NCBI GenBank assembly: GCA_902796965.1
Contig: CADBRA010000052.1
Span: 1-64,000 of the forward strand
Length of the DNA: 64,000 nucleotides
DNA from: an uncultured Eubacteriales bacterium
GTDB taxonomy: Bacteria; Bacillota; Clostridia; Peptostreptococcales; Anaerovoracaceae
Direction of reading: 5' to 3'
Below the pieces are notes generated by a model. The model searched no databases and was not told the origin of the DNA. It was given only the letters and a program-made list of their open reading frames with translations. The translations under genes were made by a program, and so were the position numbers. Shown piece after piece: positions 49,948 through 60,140 of this stretch (the first letter of the stretch is position 1; every line of letters starts with the position of its first letter).

Positions 49948-50580
49948 TCATTTATTTCTGCCCGGATCGATTTTTTCGTACATAAGAGCATTGACAATCG
50001 CAGCGGCGACATTGCTCCCGCCTTTGCGGCCGCGCGCGACTATATAATTTTCAGCCGTTTCCATAATGCGTTCTTTAGATTCTGTGACATTTACAAAACC
50101 GACCGGAACACCTATCACAAGCGCCGGCGAAACAGTGCGTTCCTCTATCAGATCAGCGAGTCTCATAAGTGCAGTGGGAGCATTTCCTACGGCAAAAATC
50201 AGCGGTTTCCCGGTGATGCGCGCAGCTTTCTCCATGCTGACTGCAGCACGCGTGACGCCTCTGCTCTGAGCTTCAGCCGCCACTTCGATATTCGACATGT
50301 AGCAGACAGCCTCTATGTGAAGCCATTCAAGCGCCTTCTTGTTTATTCCGGAAAGTGCCATATTCGTGTCAGTAACAACGACCGCTCCGCGGTCAAATGC
50401 TTCAAGAGCCGCCTGTACTGCTCCGCCAGAAAACACGAGATTCTCCTCATAATCAAAATCCGCCGTTGTGTGTATAACGCGCATAAGAACCGGCGCTTCA
50501 TCAGCCGGCGGATTCGTTCTCATCTCGCTCTTTATTATCTCGAAACTTCTTTTTTCTATGTCAGCCGGCTTTATGTATTT
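49948..50580 (-). CDS. cbiC: Cobalt-precorrin-8 / precorrin-8X methylmutase
   Basis: CbiC/CobH moves a methyl group from C-11 to C-12, giving (cobalt-)hydrogenobyrinate/cobyrinate, the substrate of CbiA. The catalytic His is in LMRVIHTTADFDYEE; NALSGINKK-like and VGNAPTALMRL, GVPVGFVNVTESKE segments are conserved. 210 aa from MKYIKPADIEK, with AAAGGA nine bases upstream. It is the last gene of the cobalamin operon, 99 nt after the CobD-CbiP fusion, and is the only ring-modifying enzyme of the upper pathway found here. A mini-hairpin lies within it. Confidence 0.93.
   Translation of the reverse strand, partial: KYIKPADIEKRSFEIIKSEMRTNPPADEAPVLMRVIHTTADFDYEENLVFSGGAVQAALEAFDRGAVVVTDTNMALSGINKKALEWLHIEAVCYMSNIEVAAEAQSRGVTRAAVSMEKAARITGKPLIFAVGNAPTALMRLADLIEERTVSPALVIGVPVGFVNVTESKERIMETAENYIVARGRKGGSNVAAAIVNALMYEKIDPGRNK
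50380..50394. repeat. Mini-hairpin repeat inside cbiC, GACCGC-TCC-GCGGTC
   Basis: Perfect 6-bp stem, TCC loop on the plus strand; coding strand reads D-R-G-A-V. Confidence 0.65.
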
Positions 50581-50679
50581 CATATTTTCAGTTCCTTTCA
50601 TTGTTACCGTCTTTCTGCTGTGCCACATCAGATGCATTTTTCACCACTGTTATTTCCCTGTAAAAACGGTGCCTGCGCT

Positions 50680-53484
50680 TCAAACATCTCGGTTCAGTGT
50701 CTTACTCCTTCTGTCAGCGGAGCTGACGCAGCACGCCGGTTTTTTCAGTCCGACGATATCATATATCTTATCTATATCGAGGTTTTTTCTCAGCAGATCG
50801 GCAAGTCTGTCGTACTGCTCCTCTCTGTATGCTCTGTAATCGCGCATTTCCGCCGTCACATTGCTGTCAGTCAGAACCGACAGCAATGCACGTCTGAAAT
50901 CAGTGCTGTCAAAAAGACCATGAATATATGTGCCGAACACATTCCCCGAAACACATCCGTCAGCGCTTCCATCTTCGAGCTTGCTGAAGTGAACTGCATA
51001 ATCTGCATCACCGGATCCGTTCACTGCTGAATTATCGCTGACGCCTCTCGCCGTAAACCGCGTGCGTCCCATATGTATCTCGTATCCCTCAATATGAGTG
51101 CCGCCCAATCCGGCAAGTCTGCCGCTGAAGCGGCCGGTAACAGCCTTTGTCTGCCTCGTGACTTTTTCATCTTTGAATTCTGTCTCAACAGGCAGAAGAC
51201 CGATTCCAGCTGTTTCAGTGACAGCGCTTTCGACAGCATCGGGATCTGTTATCCTGACTCCCAGCATTTGAAAACCTCCGCATATGCCGGCGACTACAGC
51301 GCCTCTGTCAGCTGCACGCCTCACTGCATCGGCCAGTCCTGTTTCGTTCATCCATTTCATGTCGCTTATAGTGCTCTTTGTTCCTGGGATAATGACAGCA
51401 TCGGCACCGCAGAGACCGTCCGGCTCATCGATGTACACGACGCGCGCACCATCAGCTTCAAGCGCTGTAAAATCTGAAAAATTGCTGATCTTCGGCAGAC
51501 GGATCACACAGATGAGCGGACCGCAATCACCTCTGCTGCGCAGATTGTCATTCTTATCTGCATCTCGCTGCCCGCGAAGTGTTTCCTGTTCATATTCAGT
51601 CTGCTTTTCAGTCAATATAGATCGGGACTGGTCATTTTCTCTTGTTTTGAGTCTGTCTGACAGACTGTCCTCGTCGTCTATATCGAAATCACCATAAGGA
51701 ACAACACCAAGAACAGGGACTCCGCAAACACCGGCGAGCATACTTCTTCCTTCGCTGAAAAGCGAGACATCACCCCGAAACTTGTTTGCGATAACGCCTT
51801 TTATGCGTCTGCGCTCAGGCGAGCTGAGAAGCGACATAGTGCCGGCGAGCTGCGCAAATATTCCGCCTCTGTCTATATCCCCTACGAGAATGACAGGAGA
51901 ATCAGTCATTTCAGCCAGCCCCATATTGACGAAATCATTGCCGTCACGAGTCAGATTTATCTCGGCAGGACTGCCGGCGCCTTCTATCACGATCACATCA
52001 TGCGCCGCCGCCAGTCTGCTGTACGCTGAACTAACATCGTCTCTGAGCTGCTTTTTGTATTCGAAATAGTCTGACGCATTCATATTGAAACGCGGTTTTC
52101 CGTTTACAATAACCTGAGATCCCGTGTCAGACGACGGTTTCAGAAGCACAGGATTCATATCAGATTCAGGCGGTATGCCGCACGCTTCAGCCTGTACAGC
52201 CTGAGCGCGTCCTATCTCGCAGCCGTCGGCAGTCACAAAGCTGTTGAGCGCCATATTTTGAGATTTGAACGGGGCGGGGCTGAACCCATCCTGCTTAAGT
52301 ATCCTGCAGAGACCGGCCGCAATTATACTCTTTCCTGCATTGCTCATCGTGCCTTGTATCATGATCGAAGGCGTGCGTTCCCGTTTCTCAGGATGATTGA
52401 CCCGCTCGGATTCCGATTTATAGCTTCCGAGCACTTCAGCAGCGGCTTCAAGCAGAAATTCGTCAGCTCTTTCTCCCAATAGAGCAGTTCTGTAATACTT
52501 CATGCCTCTGCACGGCTCAAGACCCCTGTAATCCGAACAGTCACGGACAGCAGCCCCGAGTTTCTTCATGTTCTCACCGAAATCATCAGGAGCCCTGAAA
52601 AGCACGAAATTTACGTCACTCTCAAATGTCTCTATGCCGAGCTTATAGAGTCCCGAAATCACGCGCCTGCGCTCCGCAGACATAATCTCCGCAGTCTTAC
52701 GGACGAAAGCTCTGTTTCCGAGCGCAGCAGAAGCGGCTTCTGCTGCAGGTCCCGAGACATTCCACGGCGGGCCGGCCTGTTCGACAGCTTCAGCCTTATT
52801 TTTATCGCTGAAGACAGCATAACCGCATCTCAGCCCTGCCATGGAAAATATCTTGGTAAAAGATCTGACTGCGGCCACGTCGGCTCCGCCGACAGAAAAA
52901 CGCGCTTCTTCGAGCGCAGCACGTTTTTTACGATCGGCAAAATCGATGAAGCATTCGTCTGTAACCAGCATCGTATCGGTTTCAGAACACCATCTCAGCA
53001 GCTCCGCATAATCCTCAGGCTCAATCAGCTTTCCCGACGGATTGACCGGATTTGAAATGAAAAAAGCGTCGCATCCCTTCGGCAGTTTTTCAAGCCCGCC
53101 GCTTATTGAGAAGCTGTTCTCAGGCCTTGTTTCAAAATATTCAATTTTTACATCTGCCTGCAACAGCGCTCTCTCATATTCCGTAAAGGACGGCACAGCA
53201 AGCAGAGCCTTTCTGATACCGAGAGCCCGGGGAAGCCTGTATATAATATCAGCGGCGCCTGCGCCGCACACTATCTTGTCAGTCTCTTCCGCAGCCATGC
53301 CGAGAAAATCAGCTACAGCGCATTTCAGCTTTCTGCTGTCTGTGTCCGGGTAACGTTCAAAACAGTCTCTGCTGCCGGCGAGCGCATCTATGGCCTCGGC
53401 CGGCATTCCGAGAGGATTCAGATTTACGGAAAAATCATATTTTATTTTGCCCGCGGTCTCGCCGCCATGATGATATCTTTTCAA
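50680..53484 (-). CDS. Fusion of threonine-phosphate decarboxylase (CobD) and cobyric acid synthase (CbiP)
   Basis: This is a single 934-aa frame. Residues 1 to about 355 are a class I/II PLP aminotransferase-fold protein of CobD type, with DFSVNLNPLGMP, SNPVNPSG and the PLP Lys at about K211 (RSFTKIFSMAGLRCGY). It would make aminopropanol phosphate. Residues about 371-934 are CbiP: IQGTMSNAGKS, VIEGAGSPAEINL, then a type I glutamine amidotransferase with Cys in GICGGFQMLG and THIEGYEIHMGRT. A polar insert (about 640-690) interrupts CbiP. It amidates adenosylcobyrinate diamide to cobyric acid. Two mini-hairpins are inside the gene. No frameshift is evident. Confidence 0.93.
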   Translation of the reverse strand: MKRYHHGGETAGKIKYDFSVNLNPLGMPAEAIDALAGSRDCFERYPDTDSRKLKCAVADFLGMAAEETDKIVCGAGAADIIYRLPRALGIRKALLAVPSFTEYERALLQADVKIEYFETRPENSFSISGGLEKLPKGCDAFFISNPVNPSGKLIEPEDYAELLRWCSETDTMLVTDECFIDFADRKKRAALEEARFSVGGADVAAVRSFTKIFSMAGLRCGYAVFSDKNKAEAVEQAGPPWNVSGPAAEAASAALGNRAFVRKTAEIMSAERRRVISGLYKLGIETFESDVNFVLFRAPDDFGENMKKLGAAVRDCSDYRGLEPCRGMKYYRTALLGERADEFLLEAAAEVLGSYKSESERVNHPEKRERTPSIMIQGTMSNAGKSIIAAGLCRILKQDGFSPAPFKSQNMALNSFVTADGCEIGRAQAVQAEACGIPPESDMNPVLLKPSSDTGSQVIVNGKPRFNMNASDYFEYKKQLRDDVSSAYSRLAAAHDVIVIEGAGSPAEINLTRDGNDFVNMGLAEMTDSPVILVGDIDRGGIFAQLAGTMSLLSSPERRRIKGVIANKFRGDVSLFSEGRSMLAGVCGVPVLGVVPYGDFDIDDEDSLSDRLKTRENDQSRSILTEKQTEYEQETLRGQRDADKNDNLRSRGDCGPLICVIRLPKISNFSDFTALEADGARVVYIDEPDGLCGADAVIIPGTKSTISDMKWMNETGLADAVRRAADRGAVVAGICGGFQMLGVRITDPDAVESAVTETAGIGLLPVETEFKDEKVTRQTKAVTGRFSGRLAGLGGTHIEGYEIHMGRTRFTARGVSDNSAVNGSGDADYAVHFSKLEDGSADGCVSGNVFGTYIHGLFDSTDFRRALLSVLTDSNVTAEMRDYRAYREEQYDRLADLLRKNLDIDKIYDIVGLKKPACCVSSADRRSKTLNRDV
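50713..50727. repeat. Mini-hairpin repeat at the 3' end of the CobD-CbiP gene, GTCAGC-GGA-GCTGAC
   Basis: Perfect 6-bp stem; coding strand reads V-S-S-A-D close to the C-terminus, in a tail with no family conservation. Confidence 0.65.
52879..52893. repeat. Mini-hairpin repeat in the CobD domain, GTCGGC-TCC-GCCGAC
   Basis: Perfect 6-bp stem; coding strand reads V-G-G-A-D shortly before the PLP lysine. Confidence 0.65.
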
Positions 53485-53493
53485 AATATTTCC

Positions 53494-54486
53494 TCACAGA
53501 TTCATGATGATCACAGCAGCCGGAATTTCACATACAGCAAGCATCAGCACAGAAGTCAGGTACATGAGGCCGTTTGCGTGAGCGATGTCAGCCGGCCCGG
53601 CTTCGCGCAGATCATCGCCTATATATTTCTTGTCATACAATTTTCCGAAATACCATGCCGGGCCGAGAAGTCTGATTCCGAGAGCTCCGGCTGTTACGGC
53701 TTCAGTGCATCCGGCATTCGGGCTCGCTGATTTTTTTCTGTCGCGGATGTAAATCCTGAGGGCGGAGTCCGCGTCAGTATAAGGAAGCAGCGCAGCGGCG
53801 GCTGTCATAAGAAAAGCCGAAACGCGCGCAGGTATGAAATTCAGCACGTCGTCAAGACGAGCTGCAAAGCGGCCGAACAGCATGTATCTTTCATTTTTAT
53901 ACCCTATCATGGAATCCATCGTGTTCACAGCCTTGTAGAAGCACAGGCCTGGGACTGACAGCACGGCCATCCAGAAGAGCGGAGCTGTCACGCCGTCCGA
54001 TGTATTCTCGGCAACAGTTTCCACGGCCGCCCGCGTAACGCCGGCGGCGTCGAGACGTTCAGTATCTCTGCCGACTATCATGGACACAGCGCGGCGTGCT
54101 TCATTCATATCATTCATTTCCAATGCATTCTGAACCTTGGTGCTCTCGGTCTTAAGCCCTTTCGCAGCGATCATCGACCAGCAGATCAGGGAGGACGCAA
54201 TACAGCCGCCTGCTCTTCCTGCTACTGCGGAAGCGAGCCGAACGGCCAGAAAGCCAACAGCCGCCGATGAAAGCGAAACAATCACAGCGAGAACAGCGCC
54301 GCGCGCAAGCTCTCTTCTTCCTTTTTTATACAGCTTATGTTCGCAAAATGTTATGAGCCTGCCGATCATGACGACAGGATGAGCCTTTGAAAGCGGATCG
54401 CCGAACAGTGAATCGAGCAGAAAACCTGCTGCCAGCGGCACCGACACATACCAGAGATAAGCTTCTGCGATGCCTGAATCCATCAT
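53494..54486 (-). CDS. cbiB: Adenosylcobinamide-phosphate synthase
   Basis: CbiB is an integral membrane enzyme that attaches aminopropanol (phosphate) to adenosylcobyric acid. The N-terminal GFLLDSLFGDPLSKAHPVVMIGRLI, then VAENTSDGVTAPLFW and NTMDSMIGYKNERY are diagnostic. 330 aa with several membrane helices. Its start overlaps the phosphatase stop by 4 nt and it ends 9 nt before the CobD-CbiP fusion that supplies both of its likely substrates. Confidence 0.95.
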   Translation of the reverse strand: MMDSGIAEAYLWYVSVPLAAGFLLDSLFGDPLSKAHPVVMIGRLITFCEHKLYKKGRRELARGAVLAVIVSLSSAAVGFLAVRLASAVAGRAGGCIASSLICWSMIAAKGLKTESTKVQNALEMNDMNEARRAVSMIVGRDTERLDAAGVTRAAVETVAENTSDGVTAPLFWMAVLSVPGLCFYKAVNTMDSMIGYKNERYMLFGRFAARLDDVLNFIPARVSAFLMTAAAALLPYTDADSALRIYIRDRKKSASPNAGCTEAVTAGALGIRLLGPAWYFGKLYDKKYIGDDLREAGPADIAHANGLMYLTSVLMLAVCEIPAAVIIMNL

Positions 54487-55073
54487 ATCTCTCCATTCAC
54501 ATAAAGCGTGCCGTCGCCGGCAATATCGCAGATGAAACCTCTGCCGTTTGATACGCAGCTGTCAAAATATTCGCGGTGCGGTTTAGCAAACGACGACATC
54601 ACAGACATTACGGTTCCTCCATGCACTACAAATATGAGCTGCGAGCGTTCCCTGTTATCACGCACAGCATCCATAAACGCATTCCGCGATCTTGCCTTGA
54701 ATTCTTCCGGATCCTCGCCGCCAGGAAACGGCAGCGTCCCGCCGCTGTCTATCCACGCCTGATAATCACTGTCGCCATCCAGCTCCTCGTAGTTCTTGTA
54801 TTCGAATCTGCCGAAATCGCACTCGCGGAGATTTTCAGCTTCTGTACGTTCTACGCCGGGATATATCAGTCCTGCCGTCTCGACGCACCGCCTGAGCGGA
54901 CTCGTTATCACGAGCGCATCTTCAGCCGCTTCAGGATATCTGCCTCTCTTGATCAGGCTCCTGACGACTTCGATTCCTTCGCTGCACAGCGGCTCATCCG
55001 TAGCACTGCCTATATATCTTTTTTCCAGATTTCCAGCTGTAGCGCCGTGCCTTATAAGTACTATCTCTCTCAT
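54483..55073 (-). CDS. cobC: Histidine phosphatase, probable alpha-ribazole phosphatase
   Basis: This phosphoglycerate-mutase-like phosphatase (196 aa) has the catalytic LIRHGATAGNLEKRYIG at the N-terminus and the second His in IFVVHGGTVMSVM. In cobalamin operons this family removes phosphate from alpha-ribazole phosphate or adenosylcobalamin phosphate, so the role is inferred from place. GAGGAG lies six bases before the ATG; a longer frame adds 23 residues. It overlaps both neighbours by 4 nt. Confidence 0.88.
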   Translation of the reverse strand: MREIVLIRHGATAGNLEKRYIGSATDEPLCSEGIEVVRSLIKRGRYPEAAEDALVITSPLRRCVETAGLIYPGVERTEAENLRECDFGRFEYKNYEELDGDSDYQAWIDSGGTLPFPGGEDPEEFKARSRNAFMDAVRDNRERSQLIFVVHGGTVMSVMSSFAKPHREYFDSCVSNGRGFICDIAGDGTLYVNGEI

Positions 55074-55432
55074 TTTATTCTCCTCGCGAGTCCAAATCTG
55101 ACGATTTCGACAGACTCGGCATTCCGGGCGAGCTCGCAGCATGCTCTGCCTGCGGCTTCTCTGAACTCGCGCTCTGATTTTTCCACAGGAATCACGCCGC
55201 TTCCTACCTCATCACATATAACTATTGCGTCAGGGCGCATGACCGGCAGAGCGCACTGACCGCCGCTCTGGTGCTCTCTGATATAATCCTGCAAGTTATA
55301 TACAATTTTTGCAGCAGCCATCTGTTCCGCGGAGGATACCGCCGCGTCAGCGGAACTGTCGTCATCTGCCCCGTATTTTTTCTCGGCGTATTCGAGCTTT
55401 CCCTGAAAAGCCCCGCCTGTTATGAATTTCAT
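55070..55432 (-). CDS. Short CobU-like protein (degenerate nucleotide-binding paralogue)
   Basis: This 120-aa protein aligns with the two ends of CobU. It begins FITGGAFQGKLEYAEKKY, like a CobU P-loop but with Leu where Ser/Thr is expected. It ends VICDEVGSGVIPVEKSEREFREAAGRA (in part) and FGLARRIK, as CobU does. The middle, with the guanylylated His and the second strand block, is missing. A full cobU lies three genes upstream. The intact frame and 4-nt overlap with cobC argue for a maintained protein, not decay. Function unknown; a regulatory or scaffold partner of CobU is possible. Confidence 0.8.
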   Translation of the reverse strand: MKFITGGAFQGKLEYAEKKYGADDDSSADAAVSSAEQMAAAKIVYNLQDYIREHQSGGQCALPVMRPDAIVICDEVGSGVIPVEKSEREFREAAGRACCELARNAESVEIVRFGLARRIK

Positions 55433-55495
55433 AAATTAATGCCTTTCGTTTCTGAATGTGGAATCCAGCTTTCTGAAGATCATTAGAATCTGACG

Positions 55496-56281
55496 TCAAA
55501 TCATCCTCAATACTGCCGCAGCTGCAATCAGAAGAACAGCGACAGAAATCTCGATGAGCCATCCGCACAGATCACCTGATATGCCGCCAAACTCCTTATA
55601 TGCCATATACCTGAAATAGATAAGTAACAGCGCACAGGCGGCTGAGAACACGAGCGCCGGCGGCCCGAACGCCCGCACGAGCGCACACTGGCAGACTGCC
55701 AGCACTGCGGAAGCGTTTAATATCAGCAGGCGTCTGCTGCTGACTGATGAAAAAGTGTAGAGCATCCCTTCGTTTCTTGCCGGTTTGACAAGCGCTATGC
55801 CGAGCTGCACTATCGCTCTCGATGCTGTAAAAATACAAATCAGCATGAGCGCAGTGTGAATTATCCACCCCTTGTCGCCAATTCTGTATATGACCTGGAA
55901 AAATGCAAAGCATACAAGCTCATATATCACAAGCGCAAGCGCGCCGAATGCTCCCATGTGCGGATCCGCGAGTATCTGCTGCTTCTTTTCGTGCCCGGCA
56001 TAAGAAGCGCGTGCGTCAGCCGTGTCAGCCAGACCGTCCAGATGAATGCCGCCTGTAACAGCCGCTGCTGCGGCGCATGCTCCGGCAGCAAATACAGCCG
56101 ATGGAAACCTGAGCAGCTCACATATAAAAAGCCATAGTATTTCAAATGCTCCCGTTATAAATCCTGCAAGCGGGAGCACAGTCAGCACGTGTTTTCTGTT
56201 TTCATCATCCCATTCTACGAACGGCACAGGAATTTTAGTATAAAGTGACAGCATTATCACCGTCGATTTCAGGAAATTCAT
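55496..56281 (-). CDS. cobS: Adenosylcobinamide-GDP ribazoletransferase (cobalamin synthase)
   Basis: CobS joins adenosylcobinamide-GDP with alpha-ribazole (phosphate) in the membrane. LYTKIPVPFVEWDDENRK and the metal-binding VTGGIHLDGLADTADA are diagnostic, followed by several hydrophobic helices. 261 aa. AAAGG eight bases before ATG 56281 supports this start, which places the first 47 nt within the end of cobU in another frame. Confidence 0.95.
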   Translation of the reverse strand: MNFLKSTVIMLSLYTKIPVPFVEWDDENRKHVLTVLPLAGFITGAFEILWLFICELLRFPSAVFAAGACAAAAAVTGGIHLDGLADTADARASYAGHEKKQQILADPHMGAFGALALVIYELVCFAFFQVIYRIGDKGWIIHTALMLICIFTASRAIVQLGIALVKPARNEGMLYTFSSVSSRRLLILNASAVLAVCQCALVRAFGPPALVFSAACALLLIYFRYMAYKEFGGISGDLCGWLIEISVAVLLIAAAAVLRMI

Positions 56282-56876
56282 CTTGCCTGCCTTTCAGAAT
56301 CACCGGAACGCCGTATATTACTTCAGCCGCGGCATCACACATATCGGCAAGTCTGCGCCCGGTGAGCGCGGTGTATTTCATGTATTTTTCAGTGAGTTCT
56401 CCGTACTCGCTTCCACCGCGGAAAATATCATCAGTGACAATGACAGCATGCTCCGCTATATTGAGTGTGCGAAGCACAGCATCCGACGTCCGCTCCGCAG
56501 ACACCTCAGGATCGAAATTTTCAAGGCCTGAGGGAAAAGGCGCCGTGCCGAACATCTCATCCGCGGTGAACCCGTCAAGACTGTCAAAAAGCACGGCGCC
56601 GAAACGCGGCCGCCCGCTTTCTGCCATTGATCCGGCCGCTTCTCTTTCAGCAATTCTGCACAGGTCATCTGCCGAGAAGCATTCTGCGATGACGTACTCA
56701 GTCCTGCCGGACTTTCTAAGCATCTCGTGTCTCATGACACGCTTAACCGACTCGCTGCTTCTGTCAGCAAGAGTCGCAATATAAAGCACCGGCAGCCCGC
56801 CGGACAGCGTCTCTGCAGCTTTTCCTGCGTACTCTGATTTTCCGCTCGCACTTCCTCCTGTCACAAAGAGTTTCAT
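56235..56876 (-). CDS. cobU: Adenosylcobinamide kinase / guanylyltransferase
   Basis: CobU phosphorylates adenosylcobinamide and adds GMP. The P-loop FVTGGSASGKSEYAGKAA (about 4-21) and the guanylyl-accepting His at about H50 (VMRHEML) are intact, as is DDIFRGGSEYGELTEKY. 213 aa is slightly longer than the common 180-190. It starts directly after the cobT stop. A one-mismatch mini-hairpin (56488-56502) is inside. Confidence 0.92.
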   Translation of the reverse strand: MKLFVTGGSASGKSEYAGKAAETLSGGLPVLYIATLADRSSESVKRVMRHEMLRKSGRTEYVIAECFSADDLCRIAEREAAGSMAESGRPRFGAVLFDSLDGFTADEMFGTAPFPSGLENFDPEVSAERTSDAVLRTLNIAEHAVIVTDDIFRGGSEYGELTEKYMKYTALTGRRLADMCDAAAEVIYGVPVILKGRQDEFPEIDGDNAVTLY

Positions 56877-57944
56877 CTACCTGAACCTCTCGTACGACTC
56901 TATTTCTATATCAGTGAAGCTTTCGCCATGCCTGTACAGTTCGACAGCGCAGTCGAGCAGCGGAAAAAGCATAACAGCACCTGCAGCTTCACCGAGCGCC
57001 ATTCCGCCGTGTATTACCGGATCGAGTTCCAGTGCCTCTATCAGCTTTTCAAACGCCGGCTCGCGCCCCATGTGCGACGCCAGCATATATCCGGTCGAAA
57101 CACGGCATATCTTCTTTGCGAGCAGCGCTGCTACACACGAGATCAATCCGTCTGCCACTACAGGAATTCTGTATATTGCCCCGCCTATGTAAAGTCCTGC
57201 CATGCCGGCAATGTCAAATCCCCCGATCTTCGAAACAACATCGATAGGGTCATCTCTGTCGGGTTTGTTCACATATATCGCAAGCTTCACTACTTCTATC
57301 TTGTGCCTGTACGAATCGCCACTGAGTCCCGCGCCTCTGCCTGTAGCTTCTACAGGGTCCATACCGAGCATGACAGACGCGATCGCCGAGGACGGAGTCG
57401 TGTTTCCTATCCCCATCTCTCCGGCAGCAAGCATGTCATAGCCTCTTTCAGACATCATTTCCGCCGTTTCTATACCGGCGAGCACTGCTCTGCACGCTGT
57501 TTCACGGCTCATAGCCGGTCCTTCCGCTATATTCCCTGTGAGCCTGCCCATTTTTTTGTCAATCGCGCCGGGAAGCGGGCCGTCCACATCTATCCCAATG
57601 TCCACCGCAAATACGTCTGTTCCGGTCTTCTCGGCGATCACATTCACTGTAGACGTGCCGTTCACGATCGCCTCCGATACAGCTTTTGTCACAGATCTGT
57701 CAGTCTGAGTCACGCCTTCGTCGGTCACACCGTTGTCAGCACACATTATGACAGCCGCACGTCTGTCCGTCCTTACATCAGGTGTACCCTGCGCAGCAGC
57801 TATTTTCACGACCATATTCTCAAATTTACCAAGTCCGTCTATGGGCTTCGCCAAAGCATCCCATCTGCGCCTGCACTCAGCGGCGGCTTTTTTTTCGGGT
57901 ATGACGGCCCGTCCTGCCATTTCATTCAGTTTTTCTTCATACAT
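56877..57944 (-). CDS. cobT: Nicotinate-nucleotide-dimethylbenzimidazole phosphoribosyltransferase
   Basis: CobT makes alpha-ribazole phosphate from a lower-ligand base and nicotinate mononucleotide. AKPIDGLGKFENMVVKIAAAQG, MCADNGVTDEGVTQTD, GEMGIGNTTPSSAI and the C-terminal catalytic Glu region GGMALGEAAGAVMLFPLLD are all conserved. I start it at ATG 57944 (MYEEKLNEM), overlapping cbiA by 19 nt in a different frame; a GTG seven codons earlier is possible. About 355 aa. Confidence 0.95.
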   Translation of the reverse strand: MYEEKLNEMAGRAVIPEKKAAAECRRRWDALAKPIDGLGKFENMVVKIAAAQGTPDVRTDRRAAVIMCADNGVTDEGVTQTDRSVTKAVSEAIVNGTSTVNVIAEKTGTDVFAVDIGIDVDGPLPGAIDKKMGRLTGNIAEGPAMSRETACRAVLAGIETAEMMSERGYDMLAAGEMGIGNTTPSSAIASVMLGMDPVEATGRGAGLSGDSYRHKIEVVKLAIYVNKPDRDDPIDVVSKIGGFDIAGMAGLYIGGAIYRIPVVADGLISCVAALLAKKICRVSTGYMLASHMGREPAFEKLIEALELDPVIHGGMALGEAAGAVMLFPLLDCAVELYRHGESFTDIEIESYERFR

Positions 57945-59293
57945 TTCAGAACAAATCTCCTGCACGCTTCAGGGCAGCTCGCAAAATGAAAATGAGGATA
58001 TCCGGCATAAAGCGTATCCGTATGAAAACCGCATTTCCACTTTCTGCTTCCGTCAGGCTTGACGGCATCAAAATCATCTCCCGGCGATGTGCTGTCCCAG
58101 TAGTGAAATTCATGAGCTTTCATCTCCGAGCCCTCCGGGCACATGAGACCGTTTTTTTCAGCCTTAAGCGTCACATAACCGAAGCGGCCGAGCGAACCCG
58201 AATCTGCGCAGCTGCCTTTTATGATTCCTGCCATCGGATACCTTGCTCCGTCCTGCCCCTCGAGTATGCTGTGAAGATACATGAATCCGCCGCACTCTGC
58301 GATCGTCGGCAGACCACTTTCGACCGCGCTTTTCACAGATCTGCGCATGCTCTTGTTTACGCTTAGACTGCCCGCGTAAATCTCAGGATATCCGCCGGAC
58401 AGAATGAGACCGTCTATGCCGTCAGGCAGCGCTTCATCGTCGATCGGACTGAAGTATACGATTCTGCAGCCCATACGCTCAAGCATATCGATATTTTCGC
58501 GATATATAAAATTGAAAGCGCGATCTCTTGAAACCGCGATTTTTGTTCCTCGTGCGAACGGTTTTTCTGAGAGCAGCTCCGGTGCTTCGAATTCGAGCAT
58601 GCCGGCCTGCTCCGCCATTCTCATTATAGAATCTATATCGATCGTCTTTTCCATCTCAGCGGCGATCAATCTGATTTTTTCGTCGAAATTCTTTATCTCA
58701 CCGGCTGTCACGAGTCCGAGATGCCGGCTTTCAAGTGTAAAGCGCCTGTCAGAAGGCAGATAGCCGAACACCTTCACTCCCATCTCCTCAGCCTTTTTCA
58801 CAGCCGTCGGAGCGAGCCTCGGAGAGATATTGTTGAATATCACACCACGTATTCTGCTGTCTTCTCCTGTATACTCGAGGAATCCCTTCAGAATAGCCTC
58901 TGCAGACGCACCCATGCCTCTGCATCCGACGACGAGGAGCACAGGCGATTCAGTGGCGCACGCCACGTCGTATGTGCTCGCTTCAGATGTAAACCCTATT
59001 CCGTCATAGTAACCCATGACTCCTTCGGCGACAGCCATGTCGCAGCCGCGCGATTCTTCCGTCATCAGATACTTCAGAGTATCACCACTGCAGAAGAAAG
59101 GATCAAGCGTTCCTCCGGCTCTGCCGGTTATCCTCGAGTGAAACATCGGGTCGATATAATCGGGTCCGCACTTGAACGATGCCGTCTTTATTCCTCTATC
59201 GATCAGGCAGCGGAGGATTCCGGCCGTAACAGTCGTCTTTCCGCTTCCGCTGCCCGTACCTGCTATTATCAGCCGAGGGGTGTCAAGCTTCAT
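57926..59293 (-). CDS. cbiA: Cobyrinate a,c-diamide synthase
   Basis: CbiA amidates the a and c carboxylates of cobyrinate with glutamine and ATP. The N-terminal P-loop is IIAGTGSGSGKTTVTAGILR (about 9-28), then FKCGPDYIDPMFH. The C-terminal glutaminase has Cys in PTIAECGGFMYLH and His in KAHEFHYWD. 455 aa from MKLDTPRLI, set by AAAGGAGG seven bases upstream; the longer frame adds 22 residues. It is the first gene of the cobalamin operon. Confidence 0.95.
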   Translation of the reverse strand: MKLDTPRLIIAGTGSGSGKTTVTAGILRCLIDRGIKTASFKCGPDYIDPMFHSRITGRAGGTLDPFFCSGDTLKYLMTEESRGCDMAVAEGVMGYYDGIGFTSEASTYDVACATESPVLLVVGCRGMGASAEAILKGFLEYTGEDSRIRGVIFNNISPRLAPTAVKKAEEMGVKVFGYLPSDRRFTLESRHLGLVTAGEIKNFDEKIRLIAAEMEKTIDIDSIMRMAEQAGMLEFEAPELLSEKPFARGTKIAVSRDRAFNFIYRENIDMLERMGCRIVYFSPIDDEALPDGIDGLILSGGYPEIYAGSLSVNKSMRRSVKSAVESGLPTIAECGGFMYLHSILEGQDGARYPMAGIIKGSCADSGSLGRFGYVTLKAEKNGLMCPEGSEMKAHEFHYWDSTSPGDDFDAVKPDGSRKWKCGFHTDTLYAGYPHFHFASCPEACRRFVLKCMKKN

Positions 59294-59360
59294 CTTTGCC
59301 TCCTTTACTCTGTTTACAAGCATTATAACGAATAAAAAATCAGTGTCTTTGAAAATCATT

Positions 59361-59467
59361 TCGATGCTGGAAGTTCTATTCTGCCGGCAAAAGGCCGCTC
59401 ACGGGCATTATCTGAACTGCCTCACAATTAAAGTGTATTTCCCGGCGGCAGCAGCTTCCTGCATCGA
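59361..59467 (-). ncRNA. Structured leader RNA of the cobalamin operon, class unknown
   Basis: The transcript folds on a closing stem of TCGATGC / GCATCGA, a 1x1 mismatch, GGAAG / CTTCC, an internal loop and CTGCCG / CGGCAG. Inside are two short hairpins (CAC/GTG and GGCA/TGCC) and a GCGGCC-rich arm, so it looks like a multibranch junction. It sits between promoter and cbiA ribosome site. I cannot match it to a known riboswitch. Confidence 0.5.
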
Positions 59468-59487
59468 CGAAGATTTATATTTAATCT

Positions 59488-59516
59488 ATTTTAACGTCTT
59501 ACTGTCACGCTTGCAA
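59488..59516 (-). promoter_or_regulatory. Sigma-A promoter of the cobalamin operon
   Basis: TTGCAA, 17-nt spacer, TAAAAT on the minus strand; leader about 190 nt. Confidence 0.6.
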
Positions 59517-59750
59517 TAATGTCATACACAGACTAAACTGCTGTATTCAGGCGGCGCGTTCAGAATCAGCAGCGCGCCGCCGTCTGTCCGCGGAGCGGTC
59601 GTAATAAGCCGGGCCTCACATTATCACCGCGTTATTTTTATAACTATAAAAAGATAGCCGGCATAATGCTTGGTATTTACAGCTGACTTGAGTCAGAATC
59701 AGGCAAACATAAGAATCTCTCCTATCTCGGCAGCTATCTCAGACAGGCAT

Positions 59751-59778
59751 AAAAAAACCCGGCTTATAAAAAGCCGGG
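59751..59778 (-). terminator. Intrinsic terminator after rplS
   Basis: On the minus strand CCCGGCTT / AAGCCGGG (8 bp, 5-nt loop) is followed by seven T. Confidence 0.9.
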
Positions 59779-59792
59779 CTGCTGAGATTATG

Positions 59793-60140
59793 CTATCTTG
59801 ATTCCTTTGATCTGATCTTCGCAGATTTTCCTGTTCTCTGTCTCATGTAGTTGAGCTTTGCTCTTCTTACATCACCATGTCTTACGACTTCGATGTGGTC
59901 AATCATAGGTGAGTGAATAGGGAATGTCTTCTCTACTCCGACACCTGATGCGATTCTCCTTACAGTGAACGTTCTTGAAAGGCCACCATTCTGCATCTTG
60001 AGCACGAAGCCCTCGAACATCTGGAGCCTTTCTCTGTTTCCTTCTTTGATCTTGATGTAGACTTTGAGTGTATCGCCTACGCCGAATTCAGGAAGATCGT
60101 CTCTCTTGTAATCCTGTTCAATTGCACTGATGATATCCAT
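59793..60140 (-). CDS. rplS: 50S ribosomal protein L19
   Basis: L19 lies at the 30S-50S interface. The 115-aa sequence is canonical: [22 protein letters not shown] (in part), [23 protein letters not shown] (in part), [11 protein letters not shown] and the basic C-terminus [15 protein letters not shown]. rimM and trmD, its usual upstream partners, are not here; instead it has its own promoter next to an IS remnant. A GC-rich leader hairpin (GCGCGC-AAAAG-GCGCGC, near 60200-60216) may be autoregulatory, as L19 leaders are known in Firmicutes. Confidence 0.97.

Follow-up and report, generated by a model that had tools for sequence, protein, structure and literature searches.

Results

The leader of the cobalamin operon

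Is the foldable stretch in front of the cobalamin operon of this uncultured Eubacteriales bacterium a regulatory RNA, as the original prediction of a divergent or new RNA class had it? The window (the whole 64,000-nt stretch of DNA that was analysed) contained a nine-gene cobalamin operon on the minus strand. Its first gene was cbiA (57926-59293), encoding cobyrinic acid a,c-diamide synthase (NCBIfam NF002204.1, 447.6 bits, cut-off 254), and the remaining genes, assigned with NCBIfam and Pfam at 49948-57953, were cobT, a cobU-like gene, cobS, a short CobU-like gene, a cobC-like gene, cbiB, a CobD-like/CbiP fusion, and cbiC. The gene upstream was rplS (59793-60140, TIGR01024), whose intrinsic terminator was placed at 59756-59780 (minus strand) by a terminator scan.

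Two features of the operon genes were also recorded. Both CobU-like genes were on the minus strand (55070-55432 and 56235-56876), and the match of the shorter, of 120 aa, to the CobU profile was confined to the C-terminal part of that profile (positions 98-167 of 168). A 934-aa frame at 50680-53484 (minus strand) joined an aminotransferase class I/II domain (residues 14-300, CobD-like) to a CobQ/CbiP-type part with nucleotide-binding and glutamine amidotransferase regions (residues 374-862), an apparent CobD-CbiP fusion.

The element under study, a leader hairpin region of 107 nt (59361-59467, minus strand), was located 68 nt upstream of cbiA. It was bounded by an inverted repeat with 13-nt arms, TCGATGCAGGAAG on the 5' side (59455-59467) and CTTCCAGCATCGA on the 3' side (59361-59373), which were 12/13 (92%) complementary with a single A-A mismatch and 81 nt between them. 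The arms read TCGATGC-A-GGAAG and CTTCC-A-GCATCGA and thus contained the predicted closing pairs TCGATGC/GCATCGA and GGAAG/CTTCC. The element also contained CTGCCG/CGGCAG and the string CAGATAATGCC. A promoter-like site, P1 (TTGCAA-17-TAAAAT, 59516-59488, minus strand), was found upstream by a promoter scan and the cbiA start was at 59293, in agreement with the proposed position of the element between a promoter and cbiA. Two small upstream ORFs, with ATG codons at 59464 and near 59409, overlapped the element; neither had a good ribosome-binding site or, by inspection, a counterpart in the closest congener sampled (G002). Farther upstream, between the rplS terminator and P1, a G+C-rich hairpin (GGCGGCGCG / CGCGCCGCC, 59545-59585, minus strand) was paired in the centroid structure computed for the region as a whole.

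Comparison with known riboswitch classes

Since Rfam gave no match to a known family, nothing pointed to a riboswitch of the cobalamin or TPP class. At gathering score, none of 4227 Rfam families in a scan of the window matched the element, and a search of the leader (59250-59600) with permissive filters and E up to 10 returned no relevant match; one SNORA70 match (E 5.4) was outside the element and was dismissed as chance. The cobalamin (adenosylcobalamin) riboswitch model RF00174 and the TPP riboswitch model RF00059 were both unmatched, which agrees with the earlier claim that the structure does not fit a cobalamin riboswitch. The element resembles RF00174 in preceding cobalamin genes as part of their 5' leader and in its multibranched fold, but it is about half as long (107 nt versus 189 model positions), is not conserved, and lacks the B12-box with kissing-loop core; reading the leader likewise confirmed the absence of a GCCACTG-like B12 box. 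To RF00059 it is alike in one short string, CAGATAATGCC, which resembles part of the core and was present as described, but the CTGAGA partner was absent from the element, as had been stated, and the pathway is the wrong one. A degenerate or divergent riboswitch of either class, for which position and that short string are the sole arguments, has next to no probability. The same genome carries a recognisable cobalamin riboswitch elsewhere, and as far as covariance models allow, this reading may be considered already refuted.

Strength of the fold

The closing helix was robust in the predicted ensemble, with pair probabilities of 0.79-1.0 for both arms. The interior that had been drawn within it, an inner CUGCCG/CGGCAG helix with two small hairpins, did not hold up: the predicted minimum-energy structure had a different interior, and the proposed one was 9 kcal/mol worse (-30.4 versus -39.4 kcal/mol). 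The local 126-nt fold had a z of -2.6, with 198 of 200 shuffles worse and two equally good. This stretch had been picked for its structure, and the background for its z is therefore the unselected windows, about 4% of which (1022 windows of 125 nt from the same sequence, both strands) reached z <= -2.58. For the whole leader, from the inferred transcription start to the first codons, z was only -0.6. Inverted repeats of this grade numbered 8 in the window, whereas 15 first-order Markov resamples contained 1-7 each, about 4 on average; counting this 500-bp intergenic region by itself, about 3.5% of resamples contained one. The strength of the fold against chance was modest.

Promoters and possible routes of switching

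No clear route by which the element could switch the operon emerged from the leader sequence. Tested as a transcription attenuator, it had no intrinsic terminator before the first gene: the scan of 59250-59800 found only that of rplS and none between the element and cbiA. The ribosome-binding site of cbiA (AAAGGAGG, 59299-59306, minus strand) had a summed pairing probability with the element of only 0.19 over its 8 positions in a ligand-free, pseudoknot-free model, which speaks against a translational switch that sequesters this site. In the whole-leader model this site was 21% unpaired, and its partners were mostly outside the element.

A second promoter-like site, P2 (AAGACA-16-TATAAT, 59349-59322, minus strand), was found downstream of the element. 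If the operon were transcribed mainly from P2, the element would be a spacer between tandem promoter-like sites with no function as RNA. P2 is nearer to consensus than P1 (10/12 versus 9/12 matches), and transcripts starting there would carry a good ribosome-binding site on a short leader. However, the part conserved in G002 is P1, inspection of the G002 leader revealed no counterpart of P2, and TATAAT-like sites are frequent in A+T-rich sequence. Transcription mainly from P2 is unlikely, although it deserves some weight.

Conservation in relatives

The genus sample comprised four genomes including the source genome, two of them quite incomplete. The CbiA of G002, the closest congener in this sample, was 81% identical to that of the source genome, and a scan of genome contigs with CbiA as query revealed no closer relative (best 53% identity). 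The promoter before cbiA aligned with that of G002 over 37 columns with a local score of 38, whereas the best of 300 shuffles reached 25. For the element against the G002 leader the local score was 11, when shuffled sequences averaged 14, and the parts of the leader on either side of the element likewise failed to align. In another congener (G003) the cbiA leader and promoter region differed from those of the source genome, and in the remaining one (G001) cbiA was closely preceded by another gene.

Wider searches returned no relative of the element. By blastn the three congeners gave no match, and 198 family genomes gave just two, each of about 30 nt; both looked like coding sequence on inspection and were rejected. 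Across 394 genomes drawn from the order, a covariance model built from the single sequence recovered nothing beyond the element itself; in 347 family genomes it recovered the element plus one match at E = 0.3, rejected because the stretch reads as protein-coding by inspection. Both of these searches ran under stricter filtering. When the model was applied unfiltered to five loci surrounding cbiA in related genomes, no match was better than E 0.62, and none was credible. The proposal of a divergent or new regulatory RNA, for which conservation of the helices had been named in advance as a measure, failed on this point: by blastn, G002 alignment, and covariance model the helices were not conserved. 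The genus, family, and order searches thus provided no relative in which a conserved cis-regulatory RNA could be compared for helices, core, or covariation.

The repeat might instead mark a small inverted-repeat (MITE-like) insertion, as its 13-nt terminal repeats are near perfect and the source leader exceeds the G002 leader by about 90 nt. Against an insertion, the element occurred once in its own genome and in none of the congeners, phage and plasmid records contained no match, no target-site duplication was visible in the flanks, and the leader outside the element was as unalignable with G002 as the element. An insertion, already weakened as an explanation, has a very small probability.

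The leaders of the congeners were also folded. The unrelated cbiA leader of G002 (L039, 3830-3931) folded well (z -3.0), with a closing helix GAUGAU/AUCAUC adjoining the start codon; that of G003 did not (z -0.25). In Rfam the G002 leader had sub-threshold matches only, the best being malK-III (E 0.62, 15 bits versus a gathering score of 50).

A cis-regulatory RNA restricted to this species (a new riboswitch, an attenuator, or a protein-binding leader) would fit with the location of the element, behind a conserved promoter and ahead of cbiA, the local z of -2.6, the structured G002 leader, and the lack of a riboswitch at the biosynthetic operon in the genus. It is nonetheless improbable, as no relative by sequence or model was found in genus or family, no terminator follows the element, pairing with the ribosome-binding site is slight, and the whole-leader z is -0.6. 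That such an RNA would be of a new kind and evolving fast, with congener leaders that are unrelated yet structured behind the same promoter, is highly improbable.

Probable cobalamin-responsive control elsewhere in the genome

RF00174 had one match in each of the four genus genomes, none of them at cbiA or on the cbiA contig, and 261 of 347 family genomes had a riboswitch over the cut-off. In the source genome the riboswitch preceded genes for a CbiK-like lipoprotein, an exported protein, a substrate-binding-type lipoprotein, a permease, and an ATPase, labels that were given from reading the translations rather than from a family search. CbiD, an early-pathway gene, shared the contig of the window, and no riboswitch was found on that contig. 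The CbiD frame (G000, C52, 99538-100839; L129, 1198-2835, minus strand) was open over 545 aa, and its profile match was split in two around about 170 residues rich in serine, alanine, and acidic residues. Cobalamin-responsive control in the source genome is most likely placed at a separate operon of uptake/chelatase type, behind the sole cobalamin riboswitch found.

A comparable arrangement has been described in Corynebacteriaceae, in which cobalamin regulons comprise mostly B12 and cobalt transport while the biosynthesis genes are present but outside them; the same paper notes that such pathways are not universally under riboswitch control (PMC3766115). The riboswitch-free cobalamin biosynthetic operons of that family are like the present one in that B12/cobalt uptake is under a riboswitch and biosynthesis is not (PMC3766115). 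The two cases differ in that the published pattern is from other lineages, and the present one is deduced from where the genes and riboswitches lie in four genomes from a single genus.

Discussion

The inverted repeat itself exists; a functional RNA feature is unsupported, and what speaks for a new regulatory RNA is limited to a modest local fold and the position of the element. The stretch is probably an ordinary, lineage-specific, and fast-evolving leader of the cobalamin operon, and the conservation in G002 of P1 but not of the leader sequence behind it is consistent with this. The element would then be the middle of a long 5' untranslated leader, copied into mRNA from a start near 59481, and would fold as a branched hairpin. 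This hairpin would not switch the operon, since it is not followed by a terminator, hardly pairs with the ribosome-binding site, and is not kept in relatives in any part. At most it may have a passive effect on mRNA stability, and the biosynthetic operon is probably constitutive or protein-controlled. Against an ordinary leader stand the local fold, which beats 198 of 200 shuffles, and the low chance (about 3.5%) of such a repeat in the intergenic region; the well-folded yet non-homologous G002 leader could hint at selection for structure itself.

With these results one candidate for a new riboswitch drops out, and a simpler picture takes its place. In this genus the B12 biosynthetic operon is outside cobalamin riboswitch control, and in the source genome the sole such riboswitch found stands before an operon of uptake type; a split of this kind between uptake and biosynthesis has already been reported for other bacteria (PMC3766115).
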